64,000 nucleotides of DNA, taken from the NCBI GenBank assembly GCA_015522695.1, contig WALT01000025.1:62001-126000 (forward strand). Direction: 5' to 3'. This DNA is from Nitrososphaerota archaeon. GTDB lineage: Archaea > Thermoproteota > Nitrososphaeria > Conexivisphaerales > Conexivisphaeraceae. Below the pieces are notes generated by a model. It saw only the letters and a program-made list of their open reading frames with translations, searched no databases and was not told the DNA's origin. The position numbers and the translations under genes were made by a program. The stretch's first letter is position 1; each line of letters begins with the position of its first letter. Below are positions 24,589 to 41,475 of this stretch, one piece after another.

Positions 24589-25250
24589 CGTCGCCCAGCT
24601 GAATGTACGACCTTCTCGATCACGAGCTTGGCTCCATCTAGATCGCCAGCCTCCACGGCTTTCCACAGATCGCCATCCGAGAACAATCGATGATAAAGGG
24701 GCATCCTGGTCCTGTAGTCGAGTCCCACCTCCTTCATCAGCCTCTTCGCATACCACATGGCCTCCAACATCATCTCTATATCCCTTCTCCCATCTAGGCT
24801 CTCCCTTATCTGATCCGCCACCCACTTGGCGACGAGCGTCGATTTACCCTCGGATGTCACAGCTACCCTGAGCCCATCCACGTGGACTTCCACAGGCATC
24901 GCGACCATGGTCTCGTCGGCGTTCGTGGTCAGGATGAACAACTTGCGCTCGTGTATGCACCGATCATGGACGAGCTTCTCTATCCTCGGTAGCTCTGGGA
25001 TGGTGTATATCACGAGGTCATGTTCCCTTATCAAATTGAGGAGGTTTTTCTCGTCCTTGACGTCGCCTTCGATTATCCTTATCAGCCCGCGTTCTCCAGC
25101 GTCCTTCAACCATTCCGTGAACTTTAGACTGTAGACCGTGAGCTTAGAACCATGTTCCAGGAAACGACGGGTCTTCTTCTCGGCCTCACCGCCGCCGCCC
25201 AGCACCAACACCTTAAGCATGCTCGCCTCGACATACATCGGTATCCTCAT
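24585..25250 (-). CDS. Precorrin-2 dehydrogenase / siroheme synthase N-terminal-type protein
   Basis: 221 aa. The NAD-binding start KVLVLGGGGEAEKKTRRFLEH and the central RKLFILTTNADETMVAMPVE, which corresponds to the family's NxxDxxxxxF segment, identify the CysG-N/Met8/SirC family. It oxidises precorrin-2 to sirohydrochlorin and may chelate iron. It is coupled at both ends by 4-bp ATGA overlaps (hemD upstream, ahbD downstream), so stoichiometric synthesis is likely. Confidence 0.85.
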   Translation of the reverse strand: MRIPMYVEASMLKVLVLGGGGEAEKKTRRFLEHGSKLTVYSLKFTEWLKDAGERGLIRIIEGDVKDEKNLLNLIREHDLVIYTIPELPRIEKLVHDRCIHERKLFILTTNADETMVAMPVEVHVDGLRVAVTSEGKSTLVAKWVADQIRESLDGRRDIEMMLEAMWYAKRLMKEVGLDYRTRMPLYHRLFSDGDLWKAVEAGDLDGAKLVIEKVVHSAGRR

Positions 25251-25987
25251 CTATCATCATACACCCCACTTAGGAACCCTGGGAATCCCCTAATATCAGT
25301 TCCCATGAACACGTTCAGCTCGGCTATCTTGTCGTCGGCCACTAATCGCCCTGCAACCCTTTTGCTGATAGCCGCTGCCATAATTTTGCGACGTGCCCTC
25401 TCCCTGATGATCCTCCAAGCGTCCACGCTCGATCTGGAGGTGAACACGACCAACTTTTTGTCGCTGGGCGTCTCTAGGAGCTTAGCCGCCTCCTTGAGGC
25501 CACGAGCATCCATCGTTATTCGATAGGACTTGACGACGATCCCCTCGAGCTTCCGAATTCTCCCCTCGAGCTTCCTACTTACCTTAGTGGAACACCAGAG
25601 CGTGTACACAGGGCCATCGATGAGCATCTTGATGATACCGGATGAGTTGTTGGGGCTGGCTATGCGGATGTTCGAGGTTATCCCCAAGTTCGATGCCATC
25701 CTTTCCATCTCCACCGCCGTAAGAGGTCCTATCGCTATGCCCCTCGAAAGGAGCCTCGAGAGGAAGGGTTCTCGAAGTAGCCTCGAGGCGACCTCCACGG
25801 ACGTCGGGGATGTGAATATGGACACCTCGGAGCGGGCTGCTGCCTCCTCTGCCTCGTTCACGTCCACAATCATCTCATTGGATAGGACAGGTAAACCGGT
25901 TATAGGAGGCGACCCCATCCTCGTTGAGAGCCACTCGAGCACCCGTCTGGACGATAGAGGGATGATCAACTCGAGATTTTCCTCCAC
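25247..25987 (-). CDS. hemD: Uroporphyrinogen-III synthase
   Basis: 246 aa. Sequence conservation in HemD is low, but the two-domain pattern is clear: VSIFTSPTSVEVASRLL in the first half and LVVFTSRSSVDAWRII in the second, each a family TSxxxV element, with IAIGPLTAVEMERM between. It cyclises hydroxymethylbilane with D-ring inversion. The position, overlapping hemC by 22 bp and sirC by ATGA, supports the call. Confidence 0.85.
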   Translation of the reverse strand: MEENLELIIPLSSRRVLEWLSTRMGSPPITGLPVLSNEMIVDVNEAEEAAARSEVSIFTSPTSVEVASRLLREPFLSRLLSRGIAIGPLTAVEMERMASNLGITSNIRIASPNNSSGIIKMLIDGPVYTLWCSTKVSRKLEGRIRKLEGIVVKSYRITMDARGLKEAAKLLETPSDKKLVVFTSRSSVDAWRIIRERARRKIMAAAISKRVAGRLVADDKIAELNVFMGTDIRGFPGFLSGVYDDR

Positions 25988-26892
25988 GTATCGAGGACCT
26001 CGAGACCGCCAGCTCTAGCGAATTTGGACGTCACGGAGCCAGCGAACTCCCATGCATCCTCCTCGTCGGCCACGTGGCCGACGGCCTCGACCTTCACCAA
26101 CTTCGAGTAATCTGGGGATATCGAGGCGACGATTGCGTTCACGGTCGTCCCCTCGAGCGATGCCAGCACCCCGAGGGGGGTCTTGCAACCAGCGCCCAAT
26201 AGCCTGACTATCGTTTTCTCCGTGATGAGCTCCAGTCTCGAACAATTATCATCGATCGCCCTGAGCGGCCTGATCATATCCTCTCGATCCTTCCTTACAT
26301 GGACCGCAAGGGCACCCTGGCCTGCAGCTGGGATGAACAGATCCGAAGGGAGCCGTGACCATCGTCCCCTGAAGCCCATCCTTTCAAGTCCAGCCTCCGC
26401 CACGACCACGGCATCGATCTCCCCTATTTTCCTCAATCTCGTATCCAGGTTGCCCCTTATCGGCAGGATGTCCAGATCCCTACGGATCGCTTTGATCATG
26501 CTCATCCTCCTCAATGACGAAGTACCGACCTTAGCGTTTGGGGGTAATGTCCATATATCAGAGCCGGTGTTGGAGACGAGGGCATCGAAGGGCGATCTCC
26601 TTCTCGGTACAGCGGCGAGGACGAGCTGGGGTGGGAGTACGGATAGCACATCTTTAGCGCTGTGCACGGCTGCATCTGCCCTTCCCTCCAGCACGGCCCT
26701 GTCGACCTCTTTCTCGAAGATCCCTTTCTCCCACATGATATAGAGCGGGGTTGTTTTGTCGACGTCACCGGTGCTCTTAACCTTGAGCAACTCCACATCC
26801 AAACCCATCTCCCTTAGGGGTTCTATCACCTCCATCGCTTGGGCTATACTGAGCGGACTTGCACGGGCAGCTATCCTGATCTTGTCGACCAC
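25966..26892 (-). CDS. hemC: Hydroxymethylbilane synthase (porphobilinogen deaminase)
   Basis: 308 aa, full length. The N-terminus KIRIAARASPLSIAQA, AAVHSAKDVLSVLPP, the TSSLRRMSMIKA Arg-rich motif, RGNLDTRLRKI and the dipyrromethane cofactor Cys in GAGCKTPLG are all present. GTG start at 26892. It opens the minus arm of the heme cluster and shares a 69-bp divergent promoter region with ahbAB; the minus-strand TTATGC-TAAAAGG element is a TATA candidate. Confidence 0.95.
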   Translation of the reverse strand: MVDKIRIAARASPLSIAQAMEVIEPLREMGLDVELLKVKSTGDVDKTTPLYIMWEKGIFEKEVDRAVLEGRADAAVHSAKDVLSVLPPQLVLAAVPRRRSPFDALVSNTGSDIWTLPPNAKVGTSSLRRMSMIKAIRRDLDILPIRGNLDTRLRKIGEIDAVVVAEAGLERMGFRGRWSRLPSDLFIPAAGQGALAVHVRKDREDMIRPLRAIDDNCSRLELITEKTIVRLLGAGCKTPLGVLASLEGTTVNAIVASISPDYSKLVKVEAVGHVADEEDAWEFAGSVTSKFARAGGLEVLDTWRKISS

Positions 26893-26961
26893 GCGCCATA
26901 GAGGTCAAGAAGAGCCCTTTTAGCATAACGCATTTTTGTCAGGATTGAAGGAGCGAACGGT

Positions 26962-27903
26962 ATGGAACCCATCGATGCACTCATCTTAAATGCGATGCAG
27001 TACGAGCTCGAGATCTCAAGCCATCCTTATGATGGAGCTGCTGAGCTGCTCGGGATGGATACGGCTGAACTGTTGAGGGCGGTTAGAAGGCTCAAGAGGG
27101 CTGGATTCATAAAGAGGATAGGATTTAGCGTCAATCGATCTGCCCTCGGAAGAGTTGGGGCGCTCGTCGCGGCGAGGATATCACATGAGAGATTGAGGGA
27201 GGCGGTGGAGAGGATAAGTGGACGTGGATGGATTAAGCACAGCTATGCTAGATCACATCATCGATATAACCTGTGGTTCACAATAGAGGCTCGGAGCCGG
27301 GAGGAGTTGATGAGGGTCGCCGATGGGATGGCGTCCCTCGCCGGGGCCAGCGAACACATAACCTTGCCCTCCGCCAAGATCTGCAAGTTGAGCGTCAAAT
27401 ACGATCTAGAGAGGGGAGTGAGCTTTTCGAAGCCCAGACTTCTCCCGGAGAACGTCCCGACGATAGAAGGGCTGGGGTTGGAGAAGGAAGTCGTGGAAGC
27501 TATGGCCGATCTGCCGCTGGTGGAGAGGCCGTTCGCCGAGTTGGCGTTGCACATGGGGGAGGGGGAAGGATCCCTGATCGACATGGCCAAAGAGCTCCTC
27601 TTAAGTGGAATCTATCATGATTTTGGTGCAGTACTTGACGGATCTAGGGTTGGTTTCTCGGCCAACGCCATGGTCGCCGCTCGTGGGGACGATGTGAAGT
27701 GTGAGGAACTAGCGCTCGAGGCACCGGAGGCGACACATGTCATCCTGCGTGATGTGCAGGATGGAGGATGGGATAAGCCTGTATTCTTCATGGTACATGG
27801 TAAGGACACTAGGATCGTCGATGCCGTCGTTGAGGATATCACGATGCTCGTGGGGCTGGAGGAGTACGAGCCCATCTACAGTCTATGGGGCGTGACGAAG
27901 TGA
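26962..27903 (+). CDS. Fused siroheme decarboxylase AhbA-AhbB
   Basis: 313 aa containing two Lrp/AsnC-like siroheme decarboxylase halves that are normally separate AhbA and AhbB proteins. Half one (about 1-150) has the HTH (AAELLGMDTAELLRAVRRLK), KRIGFSVNRSALGRVG and the active-site segment ARSHHRYNLWFTIEA at 97-110. Half two (about 172-313) repeats the plan with LEKEVVEAM, SRVGFSANAMVAARG and a family-like end EYEPIYSLWG, but its HWPYN-like active segment reads GGWDKPVFFMVHG. The product makes 12,18-didecarboxysiroheme. It overlaps ahbC by 19 bp. Confidence 0.85.
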   Translation: MEPIDALILNAMQYELEISSHPYDGAAELLGMDTAELLRAVRRLKRAGFIKRIGFSVNRSALGRVGALVAARISHERLREAVERISGRGWIKHSYARSHHRYNLWFTIEARSREELMRVADGMASLAGASEHITLPSAKICKLSVKYDLERGVSFSKPRLLPENVPTIEGLGLEKEVVEAMADLPLVERPFAELALHMGEGEGSLIDMAKELLLSGIYHDFGAVLDGSRVGFSANAMVAARGDDVKCEELALEAPEATHVILRDVQDGGWDKPVFFMVHGKDTRIVDAVVEDITMLVGLEEYEPIYSLWGVTK

Positions 27904-29075
27904 TACCGATATCGGTCATGGTAACTGGGAAGGGCACCGTCTCCCAAAGGATAAAGGGGAGCTTCGGAAGGGGGAGGCCGAGCACGTTCAGTGGCGTGAC
28001 GAGACCGGTCATCGTCTGGAACGTGACCAGGGCGTGTAACCTCAAGTGCATACACTGCTATATTAGGGCTGGGCCTGCTGACAGGATGGAACTCACCAAA
28101 GAGGAGGGCATACGTCTCGTCGCCCAGATGGCCGATGTCGGCGTGCCCCTGCTCATACTTTCAGGGGGGGAACCTCTGCTCAGAAAGGATCTATTCGATA
28201 TAGCGATCGAGGCTGGAGAAAGGGGAATGAAACTGGCGTTGAGCAGCAATGGCACGTTGATAACCAGGGATATAGCTGAGGAGATCAAGAGGGCGGGATT
28301 CCTCTATGTTGGCATATCGATAGACTCACCTCGGCCAGAATGGCACGATGGATTTAGAGGTGTGAGGGGGGCATTTGACGCTGCCCTCAACGGACTTATG
28401 AACGTCGTCAAGGTGGGCGTCCCGGCTGGGATAAGGTTCACCGTTACACGGTATAATGTGGATGATGCACCCAGGATAGTCGAGCTGGCCAGCGGGGTGG
28501 GCGCGAGCAGGGTCACATTCTACCATCTCTCGGCCGCAGGGAGGGCCACCGAGCTGGGAGGGGAGTGGTATGTGACACCGGAACAGTATTGGAGGTTCAT
28601 CGATTATCTGATAGATGTCAGCAGGAGATACGAAGGGAAGATCGAGGTGGAGACGACGATGGCTCCCTTCGATGGTATAGCGATCGCAGATCGTGTGGCT
28701 GGCAGTAGAAGAGAGTTCTGGGATCTGATGGATGTCGTGAAGGCCCAAGGCGGTTGTGGTAGGAAGATAGTGTCCATCTATCCCGACGGCACTATATATC
28801 CCTGTCAATTCATCGACTTCGTGAAGCTGGGGGACGTCAGGGAGAAGACGTTACTGGAGATATTGGAACCCAGCAGGCCGGAGCTGGACTACTTCATCGA
28901 GACGCACAAGTACCTCAAGGGGCCCAAGTGTTCCAGCTGTCCATTCAAGGAGATATGTAATGGAGGTGATAGGATCAGGGCATATCACCTCGGCGGCAGC
29001 CTGGAAGCCGATGATCCGCAGTGTCCGCTCGATACTCAAGATATATACTCCAGATGGTCCGGAAAAGAAAAGTAG
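27885..29075 (+). CDS. ahbC: 12,18-Didecarboxysiroheme deacetylase AhbC (radical SAM)
   Basis: 396 aa. The radical SAM motif is in WNVTRACNLKCIHCYIRAG (CxxxCxxC), with LILSGGEPLLRKDLF as the SAM-binding GGEP. SPASM-type cysteines are near the end (GGCGRKIVS, CSSCPFKEICNGGDRIRAY). The N-terminal region preceding RPVIVWN resembles AhbC rather than AhbD. It removes two acetate side chains to give Fe-coproporphyrin III. ATG 27885 overlaps ahbAB; an internal ATG at 27918 is an alternative. Confidence 0.9.
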   Translation: MGRDEVIPISVMVTGKGTVSQRIKGSFGRGRPSTFSGVTRPVIVWNVTRACNLKCIHCYIRAGPADRMELTKEEGIRLVAQMADVGVPLLILSGGEPLLRKDLFDIAIEAGERGMKLALSSNGTLITRDIAEEIKRAGFLYVGISIDSPRPEWHDGFRGVRGAFDAALNGLMNVVKVGVPAGIRFTVTRYNVDDAPRIVELASGVGASRVTFYHLSAAGRATELGGEWYVTPEQYWRFIDYLIDVSRRYEGKIEVETTMAPFDGIAIADRVAGSRREFWDLMDVVKAQGGCGRKIVSIYPDGTIYPCQFIDFVKLGDVREKTLLEILEPSRPELDYFIETHKYLKGPKCSSCPFKEICNGGDRIRAYHLGGSLEADDPQCPLDTQDIYSRWSGKEK

Positions 29076-29100
29076 TGGGGGAACTGTTCATGGTTCGGGC

Positions 29101-30111
29101 ATGCGATTCCCCACTGTAAGGTCTAGGAGGCTCAGGAAGGACAGGATAATACGGAATGCCGTCGCTCAAACCACGCTCGATCCATCCAGGTTGATCGCTC
29201 CCATCTTCGTCACGGAGAGTGGGAGGGAGCCGGAACCCATAGAGACGATGCCTGGCTTGTACAGATGGCCATTGAATGATGTAGCGGACCACGCTAAGGA
29301 GATCGTCGAGGGCGGTGTAGATAAACTGCTGCTCTTCGGGATTCCCTTGAACAAGGACGAGGAGGCCAGCAGCGCATACAAGCCAGATGGTGTTGTACAG
29401 AAGACCCTGAGGATTCTGAGGGAGGAGCTTGGCGAGAGGGCCCTGTTGATGACCGATGTGTGTACATGTCAGTATACACCACATGGACACTGTGGGATGG
29501 TCGTCAAGGACAGGCGTGGCTCCTGGATCGTGGACAACGATCGCAGTATAAAGGTGATGGCGAAGATCGCCCTGAGCCATGCCGAGGCTGGTGCGGATGT
29601 GGTCGCTCCGAGCAACATGATGGATGGGGTCGTCGGTTACATCAGAAAAACGTTGGATGATGAGGGCTACTCGGACGTGCTGATAATGTCGTATTCCGTG
29701 AAGTACGCGAGCAACTTCTATGGGCCCTTCAGGGAGGCCGCATTTTCGACTCCAGCCTTCGGCGACAGGAGAAGTTACCAGATGGATCCCAGAAATGCGG
29801 AAGAGGCGATCAAGGAGGTATTGCTCGACGTTGAGGAGGGGGCTGACGTGATAATGGTGAAGCCGGCCCTCCCATATCTAGACGTCATAAGGCTCGTTAA
29901 GGAGAGGATACCGTATTATCCCCTCGCAGCGTACAGCGTGAGCGGTGAATATGCTATGATAAAGGCTGCAGCTAAAATGGGATTGCTCGATGAGAAGAGG
30001 ACGCTGATGGAAGCCCTTCATGCGATAAGAAGGGCGGGGGCTGACGTGATAATAACCTACTATGCACTTGAGGCGGCGAAGATCCTGAGGGAGGGTCTTG
30101 ACTTCTTCTAG
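29101..30111 (+). CDS. hemB: Porphobilinogen synthase (delta-aminolevulinate dehydratase)
   Basis: 336 aa from ATG 29101; the frame is open to 28960, but the added residues lie inside ahbC. The zinc site DVCTCQYTPHGHCG, the first active-site Lys in MSYSVKYASNFYGPFREA and the Schiff-base Lys in VMVKPALPYLDVI are all present. It condenses two aminolevulinates. hemL overlaps its 3' end by 14 bp. Confidence 0.95.
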   Translation: MRFPTVRSRRLRKDRIIRNAVAQTTLDPSRLIAPIFVTESGREPEPIETMPGLYRWPLNDVADHAKEIVEGGVDKLLLFGIPLNKDEEASSAYKPDGVVQKTLRILREELGERALLMTDVCTCQYTPHGHCGMVVKDRRGSWIVDNDRSIKVMAKIALSHAEAGADVVAPSNMMDGVVGYIRKTLDDEGYSDVLIMSYSVKYASNFYGPFREAAFSTPAFGDRRSYQMDPRNAEEAIKEVLLDVEEGADVIMVKPALPYLDVIRLVKERIPYYPLAAYSVSGEYAMIKAAAKMGLLDEKRTLMEALHAIRRAGADVIITYYALEAAKILREGLDFF

Positions 30112-31363
30112 GGGGCTCTTCGAGAGGGCCAGGGAGCTCTTTCCGGGTGGTGTTAATAGCCCGGTGAGGGCAGCTGTGAAACCCCAGCCGTTCTTCGTCG
30201 AGGATGCCCATGGAGCGAGGATCACGACCACGGATGGAGACGAGCTCATCGACTGGGTTATGGGCTATGGACCATTGATATTGGGCCATAGAAATGGGAA
30301 GGTCCTGGCTAGGGTCAGGGAGCAGCTCGAGAAGGGTTGGCTTTACGGTGCTCCATCGCGCACCGAACTCGAACTCGCGGAGAAGATACTCCGATATTAT
30401 GGGCCGGGGATGGTGAGGTTCGTGAACTCCGGTACTGAGGCCACGCTCACGGCGATAAGGCTGGCGAGGGCTTATACACGAAGGAGGATCTTAGTGAAGT
30501 TCGAGGGATGTTATCATGGATCGAACGACTCTCTACTCGTTAAAGCCGGGAGCTCAGCCCTTCATTACGGCGTGCCGACGTCGATGGGGGTGCCCGAGGA
30601 GCTCGCAGCGCTCACGATCGTATTACCTTACAACGACATAGAGGCCTTCATGGATGCGATGGGAAGGGTCGGGGAAAAGGTCGCTGCGGTGATCGTGGAA
30701 CCCGTCGCCGCCAACATGGGGCTTGTGCTCCCGAAGGAGGGATTTCTGGAGACCATCAAGGAGGAAGCGAAGAAAGCCGGGGCTCTTTTGGTGTTCGACG
30801 AGGTCGTCACGGGATTCAGGCTCGGCCTGGGAGGGGCACAGGGTGAGTTCGGGGTGAAACCGGACGTGACCACGCTGGGGAAGGTGATAGGGGGAGGCTT
30901 TCCTATAGGCGCAGTAGCCGCCGGGAAAGATTTGATGATGGAGCTCTCGCCTTCAGGACCTGCATTCAATGCGGGCACGTTTAACGCACACCCCGTGTCG
31001 ATGGCTGCAGGACTGGCGACGATAGAAGCCCTCGAAGAGGGTTGGCCCTACAGGATCGCCGACGAGGCGGCTGGAGATGTTGCGGAAGAACTTGGACGTA
31101 TAGCTGAAGATAAGGGGCTCGACGTGACCGTAAATCGCCTCGCCAGCATGCTCCAGATATTCTTCACTGAAGGTCCCATCAGGGACTACTCGGACGTGGC
31201 TAGATCAGATAAGGGAAAGTATGGAAGGATGCAAGAAGCCATGGCCGAAGCTGGTGTATTCATCCCTCCAAGCCAGTTCGAGACATGGTTTGCGAGCGCA
31301 GCGCACACGGAGGAGTGTGTGATGAAGACCGTGGAGGCCGCCAGAAGGGCCTTGGTGCATTGA
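30098..31363 (+). CDS. hemL: Glutamate-1-semialdehyde 2,1-aminomutase
   Basis: 421 aa, normal length. The N-terminal ELFPGGVNSPVRA, VNSGTEATLTAIRLAR, FDEVVTGFR and the PLP Lys in LGKVIGGGFPIGA are family hallmarks. It makes 5-aminolevulinate from glutamate-1-semialdehyde. TTG start at 30098, within the end of hemB. hemA (glutamyl-tRNA reductase), its partner, is not in this window. Confidence 0.95.
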   Translation: MTSSRGLFERARELFPGGVNSPVRAAVKPQPFFVEDAHGARITTTDGDELIDWVMGYGPLILGHRNGKVLARVREQLEKGWLYGAPSRTELELAEKILRYYGPGMVRFVNSGTEATLTAIRLARAYTRRRILVKFEGCYHGSNDSLLVKAGSSALHYGVPTSMGVPEELAALTIVLPYNDIEAFMDAMGRVGEKVAAVIVEPVAANMGLVLPKEGFLETIKEEAKKAGALLVFDEVVTGFRLGLGGAQGEFGVKPDVTTLGKVIGGGFPIGAVAAGKDLMMELSPSGPAFNAGTFNAHPVSMAAGLATIEALEEGWPYRIADEAAGDVAEELGRIAEDKGLDVTVNRLASMLQIFFTEGPIRDYSDVARSDKGKYGRMQEAMAEAGVFIPPSQFETWFASAAHTEECVMKTVEAARRALVH

Positions 31364-32109
31364 GCGGGAAGGTCTACATAATCGGAGCAGGTCCTGGTGA
31401 TCCGGAGCTCATAACTGTCAAGGCGGCGAAGATACTCGGAAGGGCGGACGTGGTGTTGTATGATAGGCTTGTGCCACATGGGCTTGTGGAACGTTACACT
31501 GGGAGGACAGAGCTCATATATGTGGGCAAGGAACCTGGTCAAATAGGATTAAGTCAGGACGAGATAAACAAGATGCTAGCTGAGCATGCTAAGGCTGGAA
31601 GGATCGTCGTCAGGCTCAAGGGCGGTGACCCATTCATATTTGGGCGGGGCGAGGAGGAATGTGCATATCTACTCTCCAGCGGTATCAGATGTGAGATCGT
31701 GCCAGGGCTCACCTCCGCCACTGCTGCACCAGCTTGTGCAGGAATACCGGTCACCAGTAGATGGGCTGCATCGAGCTTTGCCGTTGTAACCGGACGGGAG
31801 GCGTCGGAGAAACCTGTGAAACGTGTCAAACTCACAGATATAGCTTCCACCGTGGATGTGCTGGTCGTGCTCATGGGGGTCTCGAAGCTGGAGGAGGTCG
31901 TGGGAGAAGTGCTGAAGTCGAAGGATCCTAAGACACCTGCGGCGATCATCGTGGATGGCTGCACGCAGAGGCAAAGGGTCGTGACATCCAGCTTGGATGG
32001 GATAGTGGAGGCTGCCAGAAAGGAGCACATAGCGCCGCCAGCGGTATTGATCGTGGGCTCGACGATCGGTATCATGGAGAGAAGGGCTCTAGGGGGACAG
32101 GATATTTAA
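31360..32109 (+). CDS. cobA: Uroporphyrinogen-III C-methyltransferase
   Basis: 249 aa from TTG 31360, which overlaps the hemL stop as TTGA and immediately precedes the conserved KVYIIGAGPGDPELIT; a longer frame from 31285 is inside hemL. VVRLKGGDPFIFGRGEEE, EIVPGLTSATAAPACAGIP and LVVLMGVSKL complete the SUMT signature. It methylates uroporphyrinogen III twice to precorrin-2, the branch point into siroheme and here into heme. Confidence 0.93.
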   Translation: MSGKVYIIGAGPGDPELITVKAAKILGRADVVLYDRLVPHGLVERYTGRTELIYVGKEPGQIGLSQDEINKMLAEHAKAGRIVVRLKGGDPFIFGRGEEECAYLLSSGIRCEIVPGLTSATAAPACAGIPVTSRWAASSFAVVTGREASEKPVKRVKLTDIASTVDVLVVLMGVSKLEEVVGEVLKSKDPKTPAAIIVDGCTQRQRVVTSSLDGIVEAARKEHIAPPAVLIVGSTIGIMERRALGGQDI

Positions 32110-32134
32110 AGGAGACCGATTTCACCTGGATCAA

Positions 32135-33163
32135 ATGAAGCCGATCGGTTTCAGGGTTGCTTCCAGCAGTAGCGACCTCGTCGGATATACGCCCATGGTC
32201 AGGCTCAGCCATCTAGATAGAGATCTGCCGTACGAGATATGGGGGAAGGCTGAATTTCTCAATCCTACCGGTAGCGTCAAGGACCGCATGGCCTTGTATA
32301 TGATCAGGGAGGCCGAGATCAGCGGTAGGCTTAGGCCGGGCATGACGATCGTGATACCCACGACGGGGAACACCGGGATATCGTTTGCAGCTTGGGGCTC
32401 ATACTTGGGCTACAAGGTCCTCATAGTCATGCCCGAAGAGATGAGCTATGAGAGGAAACTCTTGGACATCCTATTCGGAGCGGAATTGACCTATACGCCC
32501 GGAGGCGAAAGCGATGCCATGGGCGCCTTGGAGTATGCGAAGAGGCTCGAGAGGGAACATCCTGACGAATACGTCGCATTAGACCAATGGGACGATGAGG
32601 CCAACGCGAGGGCACATTACGAGACCACAGGGAAGGAGATATTGGAACAGCTGGAGGCGGATAGCATCGCGGGGTTTATCGCAGGCGTCGGCTCCGGTGG
32701 CACTCTCGCCGGTGTTGCCAAGAGGCTCAAGGAGGCGAACTCGAGGATAGTAACGGCCGGCATGGAACCGGCCGAGTGTCCTACGGCGGATGGTTGGTTT
32801 AAAACCGGAAAGGTGGGATCGTGGGGAAGACACGAGATAGAGGGCATAGGCGATGGCTTCGTGCCTGGGATCATAGCCAGATACAATATGTACATAGATG
32901 ATTGGATCACGATCTCAAGCGATGAGGCGATAGAGGCCGCCAGGATCATAGCGAGGGAGGAGGCACTCCCCTTAGGCATATCGTCCGGTGCCAACGTGGC
33001 GGCTGTCATGAAGCTGGCTGAGGATAGGAGGATCAGGGATGGGAGGATCGTGACGATATTGCCCGACTATGCAGCTAGATACTTCAGTACGAGGCTCTTC
33101 CTGAAGAGGAGGCTGACCACTGAGGAGCATAGGCGCATGTTGGAGCTATCGAGGGAAGACTAA
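32135..33163 (+). CDS. Cysteine synthase family PLP enzyme
   Basis: 342 aa. PLP Lys in NPTGSVKDRMA, the asparagine loop PTTGNTGISFA and the phosphate loop VGSGGTLAGVAKR are intact; GISSGAN is at the C-terminal end. It belongs to the O-acetyl/O-phosphoserine sulfhydrylase or cystathionine beta-synthase-like group; the precise donor is undetermined. It begins 25 bp after cobA. Linkage to siroheme genes may reflect sulfite reduction, which needs siroheme and delivers sulfide for cysteine. Confidence 0.85.
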   Translation: MKPIGFRVASSSSDLVGYTPMVRLSHLDRDLPYEIWGKAEFLNPTGSVKDRMALYMIREAEISGRLRPGMTIVIPTTGNTGISFAAWGSYLGYKVLIVMPEEMSYERKLLDILFGAELTYTPGGESDAMGALEYAKRLEREHPDEYVALDQWDDEANARAHYETTGKEILEQLEADSIAGFIAGVGSGGTLAGVAKRLKEANSRIVTAGMEPAECPTADGWFKTGKVGSWGRHEIEGIGDGFVPGIIARYNMYIDDWITISSDEAIEAARIIAREEALPLGISSGANVAAVMKLAEDRRIRDGRIVTILPDYAARYFSTRLFLKRRLTTEEHRRMLELSRED

Positions 33164-40110: not shown

Positions 40111-40378
40111 GCCGATATCATCGTAAGACTCGGATAAAAATACCTTCTAGAATGGCACACCGTGTCTTCATATACGATACGATCCGAGATCATCACCCGA
40201 CTGCTCGGCATGGATTTGAGACCGAACTTCCAGAACGAGGGTAGATGGTGACATGGAGATCGTTCGACCTTGGCTTTGGCATATATGACCCCGGTTTTAG
40301 TATCGGTGTCAGGGAACCGATCGTGGAGTTCTGATCACTGATGATGTAAAAACTGATTAATGTGACCGATCATTATGT

Positions 40379-40735
40379 ATGATGATGGACGAGGAGAAGA
40401 TAGGTAAGGAATTCAGCCATCCACGTCTGAAGGAGCTAGACGTGGAGGAGATCAGGAGGATATTGGAAGCTGTGAGCGAGTTCCTGAGCAACCTGAAGCA
40501 ACCGATAAAGGAGATGCTGGATGTCATGACCTCAAGCTTGGACGGTGATAGGATAGGGAGGGATGTGGTCTCGTTCTACTCTAAACTTAAGGAGAGCGGT
40601 GTATCGGAGGAGCTCGCCTCCGATATGACGAGGGAATATCTCAGGAGGAGGTTAGAGGTCGTGCCGAGCATCCAAGATTTCCTGGAGACAGCGACCAAGC
40701 ATGGCCCTCCATGGACTAAGAGAGAGAAGGGCTGA
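40379..40735 (+). CDS. Hypothetical protein, first gene of a micro-operon
   Basis: 118 aa, acidic, helical, no membrane segment. Start within ATGATGATG at 40379. I recognise no family. Its C-terminal motif F66-x3-L70-x3-GV(74-75)-x-E77-x-L79, then E86-Y87 and P96-S97 recurs with the same spacing in the third gene of this operon. The second gene, a winged-helix protein, starts 55 bp after its stop. Confidence 0.6.
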   Translation: MMMDEEKIGKEFSHPRLKELDVEEIRRILEAVSEFLSNLKQPIKEMLDVMTSSLDGDRIGRDVVSFYSKLKESGVSEELASDMTREYLRRRLEVVPSIQDFLETATKHGPPWTKREKG

Positions 40736-40790
40736 GGAAGATCGTAGTTAGGGAAAGCTGTTTTAGCATAGGGAATTCCAGAAGGACACG

Positions 40791-41234
40791 TTGACAGACG
40801 TGGAGGAGAGGCTGGAGAAGCTTGAGAGGTTGCTGTCGGATATCATGGAGAAGTTGGATGTTATAGAGTCCATGCTCAGTCCTTCATGGGCTGGGAACGC
40901 TGGTGACGTCGTGAGGATAGCCTCCCAGCTCGTGCTCGCCTTCTCGATGCCTGCACTGACCGCGGTCGAAGCCGCGGCGAGGGTCGTGGGATCGCTTAAT
41001 GCCAGCGTATCGAGGGATGACATTACGCTGGCGACCATCGAAGGCCTGTCGACATGTGAGCCCCTGACGATATCTGAGTTGACCAGGAGGGTGAGGAAGG
41101 CCAGAGGTAGAGCCTCTAGAAGGATAGTCAGAGAGCGTATCCAAAGGCTCACGAGTTCCGGCGTCGTCGTGTTCGTCGGTAGGGAGGGGGAGAGGCGTAA
41201 GGTCACGTTGAGGAGATGTGTTGAAGGTCACTAA
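40791..41234 (+). CDS. Winged-helix-like protein with N-terminal coiled coil
   Basis: 147 aa. Residues ~4-30 form an amphipathic coiled coil (VEERLEKLERLLSDIMEKL), 35-75 are an Ala/Val-rich helical hydrophobic segment, and 88-140 resemble a winged helix (TISELTRRVRKARGRASRR, IQRLTSSGVVVFVGREGERRKVTLR). TTG start at 40791. Probably DNA-binding; target unknown. It sits between two genes whose products share a motif, and overlaps the next by 17 bp. Confidence 0.6.
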   Translation: MTDVEERLEKLERLLSDIMEKLDVIESMLSPSWAGNAGDVVRIASQLVLAFSMPALTAVEAAARVVGSLNASVSRDDITLATIEGLSTCEPLTISELTRRVRKARGRASRRIVRERIQRLTSSGVVVFVGREGERRKVTLRRCVEGH

Positions 41235-41475
41235 GGTGTTTTTGGCATCGATGAGGATATTCATGGCCGCGGTATGGCTGACAGCGTTCAGGATCTCATG
41301 GACAGCGAGGGCCAGATCCGAGAAGTACAAATTCAGGAGAACGTTGGAGAGGAATGGCGTCCCAGAGGACCTTATAAGGGAGCTAGAGGAAGAATATTCT
41401 AAGAAGTTGTCCGGCATTTTCCCGAGCCTGTACAGCCTACTGGCCGCGAAATCGATCGGCTTGGGGCATCGTTAG
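41218..41475 (+). CDS. Small hypothetical protein, third gene of the micro-operon
   Basis: 85 aa from GTG 41218 (TTG 41221 or GTG 41236 possible). The N-terminal ~28 residues are hydrophobic (VFLASMRIFMAAVWLTAF) and may anchor it in the membrane. The rest carries F39-x3-L43-x3-GV(47-48)-x-E50-x-L52, E59-Y60, P69-S70, the same spacing as the first gene of the operon. Confidence 0.6.
   Translation: MLKVTKVFLASMRIFMAAVWLTAFRISWTARARSEKYKFRRTLERNGVPEDLIRELEEEYSKKLSGIFPSLYSLLAAKSIGLGHR

Follow-up and report, generated by a model that had tools for sequence, protein, structure and literature searches.

Three small open reading frames, genes A, B and C, lie together in the window (the whole 64,000-nucleotide stretch of DNA analysed here), and they raise the question of whether they form a functional unit and what such a unit might do. 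In the initial annotation they were described as a micro-operon at 40379–41475, in which a winged-helix protein lies between two small proteins with a common motif and overlaps the last gene. The positions of all three frames are correct, as is the place of B, which overlaps C by 17 nt. Coordinates are given in Table 1.

Table 1. Genes of the trio and candidate operator sites upstream of it (positions in the window)
Feature	Position	Strand	Description
Gene A	40379-40735	+	118 aa, soluble, all-helical; conserved VEE(I/L)xxxL helix, then hairpin common to A and C
Gene B	40791-41234	+	147 aa, TTG start; coiled coil at the N-terminus, then a long helix that includes a hydrophobic stretch, then a winged helix at the C-terminus in which RGxASRR is near invariant
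Gene C	41218-41475	+	85 aa, GTG start; N-terminal transmembrane segment and A-type hairpin
TGATCA	40332..40337		perfect TGNNCA palindrome; lies 47 bp before gene A
TGATTA	40354..40359		degenerate TGNNCA-like, 1 mismatch; +22 from TGATCA site
TGACCG	40363..40368		degenerate TGNNCA-like, 1 mismatch; +31 from TGATCA site

Matches to the A profile were found in 87 of 398 Thermoproteota genomes and matches to the B profile in 85. Both proteins are present in 84 genomes and one occurs without the other in four (Fisher p about 1e-81). At 83 of the 87 B loci A lies no more than 1.6 kb away, and three of the four remaining loci belong to genomes that have A on another contig. C is recognisable beside A and B at nearly all loci examined and is missing at a few (L109, L125 and L131). 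The homologues are thus found together, which agrees with the check proposed in the initial annotation, and the unit is wider than first seen, extending to more than 80 genomes of one phylum.

The order of the genes is A-B-C at 19 loci, A-C-B at 14 and B-A-C at 14. It largely tracks the phylogeny of B, and the trio stays together across all three arrangements. An all-against-all comparison of neighbours at the compared loci returned no other gene widely common across families, which argues for a self-contained unit that stands alone in many contexts. The trio is usually chromosomal, with one locus per genome, and is missing from many relatives. The first pairs of A and B in Geothermarchaeales-type genomes were found by single-protein searches, and in five genomes of this type A and B are separated by the gene of a small membrane protein. 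The metagenome-assembled genome AUK086 carries the trio in A-B-C order, as in the window. Weak B-profile matches in Nitrosopumilaceae-like genomes were mostly dismissed as generic winged helix-turn-helix (wHTH) proteins, since A was not found alongside.

Some loci depart from the usual composition. A few genomes have a second A-B pair (G591, at L114 and L131; G699, on C2 and C3), and C was not recognised in the second G591 copy. In G417 (L132) an A-like protein is present and B was not detected. Within family f14, A is interrupted by an in-frame TAG in G165 (L068, 5298–5760, minus strand), and in G345 (L069, 5040–5315 and 5743–6113) C contains an in-frame TAG and B is frameshifted. A reading of these codons as pyrrolysine was not supported; no pyrrolysyl-tRNA synthetase scored over the cut-off in either genome, which points to decay or assembly error and not to recoding.

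The motif F-x3-L-x3-GV-x-E-x-L, on which the pairing of the first and third proteins had been based, is matched exactly in A (FYSKLKESGVSEELASDMTREYLRRRLEVVPS) and in C (FRRTLERNGVPEDLIRELEEEYSKKLSGIFPS). In both, EY starts 12 residues after the G, and PS follows the E of EY by 10 residues. These two details are confined to the sub-clade of the window copy; the core conserved throughout the family is F/Y-x2-3-L-x3-G-[IVM]-P-x3-A-x2-[ML]-x3-[YF]. Comparison of profiles built from 52 A and 48 C proteins gave a probability of 91% (E 1.1e-6, score 38.9) over 50 columns centred on the motif, versus a top score of 11.6 among 100 column-shuffled C profiles. The corresponding probability for A and B was 0.6%, and that for C and B was also below 1%. 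The matches are reciprocal, in that the A profile finds C members directly and the C profile finds A members. The shared motif is therefore not a product of chance, and on this profile evidence A and C are homologous through a real shared helical hairpin.

In the AlphaFold model of A the hairpin is formed by helices 56–72 and 77–93, with pLDDT of about 90 and above at residues 61–90. Values elsewhere are modest (mean pLDDT 71), so the model as a whole is moderately confident; a Foldseek search with it against the PDB returned no match. The proposed division into a soluble and an anchored protein holds, with an N-terminal hydrophobic segment predicted in C and none in A. The hairpin of C follows the transmembrane segment, and of the two flanks of that segment the one towards the hairpin carries more positive charge (3.6 versus 2.3), a bias that weakly favours a cytoplasmic location of the hairpin. 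As a separate matter, residues 1–25 of A in the window (40379–40453; MMMDEEKIGKEFSHPRLKELDVEEI) are 52% identical to a stretch preceding an ABC-transporter ATPase domain in the same genome (L002 1501–1575; G000:C5:23051–23125), and other A proteins do not have this N-terminal stretch.

The AlphaFold model of B comprises a coiled coil (residues 3–28), a long helix (36–73) and a winged helix (77–140). The best Foldseek matches are to the DNA-binding domains of Fur, ArsR and MarR proteins (best E 4e-3, probability 1.0), and the model together with these matches identifies a wHTH fold with a DNA-recognition helix. The recognition region, RG-x-A-S-R-R, is near invariant among 40 diverse members, as expected if the DNA target is conserved. 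Judged by sequence, B is an ordinary, generic wHTH. Models of autorepressor type are matched weakly, an ArsR/SmtB model by 17 of 40 B proteins and the NCBIfam SdpR model by two (E 0.0056); the window B matches neither. The NCBIfam models of Lrs14, Sta1 and Sul12a, which are likewise small archaeal (crenarchaeal) wHTH proteins, are each matched weakly by one or two B members at a generic wHTH level; B differs from them in its N-terminal coiled coil, the RGxASRR sequence and its constant partners A and C. The long helix of B is moderately hydrophobic (19-residue mean 1.52 in the window). A wHTH and a transmembrane segment on a single polypeptide were not found in the trio, where the clear anchor is the separate protein C.

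Searches of Pfam and NCBIfam with A, B and C gave no match worth counting. For A and C no family relative was seen in these libraries, and PADLOC and PHROGs gave nothing convincing; A also lacked a relative in a sequence search of the PDB, and Rfam returned no match. The original statement that no known family describes the system accordingly stands for A and C in the libraries searched. A description of such a system was not found in the literature searched, which included work on membrane-bound regulators and lay mostly outside subscription journals.

A possible target for B emerged from the region upstream of the trio. In 46 trio loci representing 29 families, the palindrome TGNNCA occurs at 7.8 per kb, versus 2.7 per kb in 220 control upstreams from the same loci. 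The sites are concentrated 30–90 bp ahead of the first gene, and the distances between them cluster at 10–12, 22, 32 and 43 bp and hardly ever take other values, so that the palindromes are spaced one to four helical turns apart; the control upstreams have no such pattern. Phased pairs are present in 20 of the 46 trio upstreams (12 of 29 families) versus 3 of 220 controls, an enrichment that gives p 2e-10 with each family counted once. Because TGNNCA had first been spotted by inspection, the same test was applied to 1,280 two-block patterns, among which TG..CA ranked first by both measures and by a wide margin. Counts of exact 5-mer dyads and of 6–8-mers did not reveal the element, which came to light in its gapped form. 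By inspection, one layout recurs, in which a pair of sites separated by one turn is followed by a TATA-like stretch rich in A/T and then by a third site at +32 or +43.

Fewer than half of the trio loci have the phased pair, and most loci with B first lack it; among the loci in B-A-C order, L105, L106, L111, L121, L125, L126, L129 and L130 are mostly without it. In the window only TGATCA is perfect, scoring 10.3 with a palindromic matrix from the upstreams of related loci. The degenerate TGATTA and TGACCG, both in phase with it, are each weak evidence alone, and the +22 spacing of the former agrees with the phased spacing in relatives. The phased array is a putative operator in the trio's own promoter, and conservation and position suggest B as its presumed ligand. 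The regulatory character proposed in the initial annotation gains support from this dedicated element, and autoregulation of the operon is a well-supported prediction from these sequence comparisons.

The array appears to be specific to the trio. Across 1.3 Mb of G487 the 11-bp tandem pattern was counted five times, one of them at the trio; a 380-kb sample showed no further three-site array and no phasing. As a side observation, TGNNCA-N5-TGNNCA is found 5 times in G487 and 8 times in G492, where the reversed pattern used as a control is found 42 and 36 times, respectively; the tandem is thus depleted genome-wide in both, yet present at the G487 trio promoter.

This restriction bears on whether the trio could be a tether between chromosome or nucleoid and membrane, with B on the DNA, C in the membrane, A as a bridge or modulator and autoregulation as a side feature. 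A DNA-binding protein combined with a membrane protein and a soluble adaptor would suit such a device, as would the usually single chromosomal copy, the lack of conserved regulon-like neighbours and a coiled-coil B with generic matches to archaeal chromatin-type wHTH proteins (Lrs14, Sta1, Sul12a). However, a phased array that appears limited to the trio promoter, with few tandem sites genome-wide, no associated ATPase or parS-like cluster, and the many relatives that do without the trio all speak against it, and we regard a tether as improbable. The SegAB system of Sulfolobales is comparable, being likewise small, archaeal and chromosomal and including a DNA-binding protein (PMC12284271). Its SegA is a ParA-type ATPase (PMC12284271), whereas no Walker-type ATPase partner, as in SegAB or ParABS, is conserved in or beside the trio at the loci compared. 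No reliable match to the trio was obtained in family f42, whose genomes are large and which is taken to be Sulfolobaceae.

The trio appears to be a real, previously undescribed and self-regulating system. Our preferred reading, to which we give a little less than an even chance, is a regulatory module of Thermoproteota that is autoregulated and linked to the membrane, with B under the control of the hairpins of A and C. B would dimerize through its coiled coil and bind TGNNCA palindromes that, at intervals of one to four helical turns, share a single face of the promoter, and its occupancy would set the expression level of its own operon. The hairpin would exist in two forms, free in the cytoplasm as A and tethered to the membrane as C, which could compete for B or co-assemble with it (or with each other). 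The state of the membrane or envelope might in this way be relayed to the occupancy of B on DNA, much as in the membrane capture of an autorepressor, and the activity of B would follow the balance of soluble and membrane-bound hairpin proteins. The control of B by A and C is presumptive here, as are the sign of regulation, every contact among the three proteins and the signal.

The closest parallel in regulatory logic is SdpR/SdpI of Bacillus subtilis, an autoregulated operon in which an ArsR-type wHTH repressor can be captured by a small membrane partner. The trio would share with it the logic of a membrane-captured autorepressor and, in 12 of 29 families, a putative operator array in its own promoter; two of the 40 B proteins match the SdpR model weakly. 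SdpI, however, is a multi-pass protein with no soluble paralogue in its operon, whereas the archaeal trio encodes a pair of hairpin paralogues. Nothing homologous to SdpI was seen. In transmembrane transcription regulators of the ToxR/CadC type the membrane is likewise linked to transcription through a wHTH (surveyed in PMC10269533), but the trio divides the DNA-binding domain and the anchor between separate proteins and adds a soluble paralogue of the anchored part.

A stronger form of the preferred reading, a phylum-wide signalling module in which paired soluble and membrane hairpin proteins gate an autoregulating wHTH on a helically phased multi-site operator, seems rather unlikely. If true, it would be a three-protein relay from membrane to DNA without a kinase, protease or ligand-binding domain.

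Predicted autoregulation may by itself be compatible with a main job other than regulation. A and C could conceivably form a structural or envelope complex, for example in membrane remodelling or stress protection, with regulation by B as a servant of its synthesis. Mean column identity in the alignments is 20% for A, 20% for C and 34% for B, and greater variation in A and C, with the hairpin alone common to both, would fit such a role, as would a putative operator that controls the trio operon only, as far as seen. Set against this, neither the fold nor the family comparisons of A and C point to an envelope function, and we judge that such a complex has a low probability.

The trio is a strong candidate for a basic system of regulation or cell organisation that has been overlooked. 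That status rests on adjacency throughout a large part of a phylum with hyperthermophilic members and on two families new to the libraries searched, and the operator-type element common to a dozen families adds to it. This is a rare case in which the likely binding site of an archaeal transcription factor can be read across a whole phylum, and the conserved operator and the pair of soluble and anchored paralogues lead to immediately testable predictions.

How the trio reached the window genome also bears on its nature. Among 20 genomes of the window's order it occurs in the window genome only. The contig belongs to that genome, as indicated by a CCA-adding-enzyme gene in the window. This gene is 50–52% identical to its counterparts within the family, and identity to the rest of the order is about 40% or less. 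In the B tree the window protein falls within the ABC clade, beside AUK086 (support 0.91) and apart from its class-mates. The trio probably reached the window genome by horizontal transfer from a donor of Thermoproteia type, and the placement of B in the ABC clade suggests transfer of the whole trio, in keeping with a functional unit. The same picture could, however, arise from sparse sampling or from multiple losses.

Likely horizontal acquisition, an apparently autoregulated operon of small genes with a tiny membrane protein, and the degraded copies in family f14 might also be expected of a toxin-antitoxin-like or defence module. C would then act as the effector, A would be its soluble antagonist and B would serve as an autorepressor. 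The trio does not have the patchy, multi-copy, mobile-element pattern of such modules. Its single-copy chromosomal occurrence disfavours this reading, as does the absence of B from the plasmid collection and the IMG/VR contigs searched. A and C, moreover, have no convincing PADLOC or PHROG match and no conserved defence-island neighbours, and they are paralogues, unlike typical toxin-antitoxin pairs. A module of this kind is therefore quite unlikely.

Elsewhere in the window, a tetrapyrrole-biosynthesis-like run of open reading frames, recognised by eye from the translations, occupies 25247–33163. It comprises hemC-, hemB-, hemL- and uroporphyrinogen-methyltransferase-like frames and a radical-SAM protein, and is followed by a pyridoxal-phosphate-enzyme-like frame.
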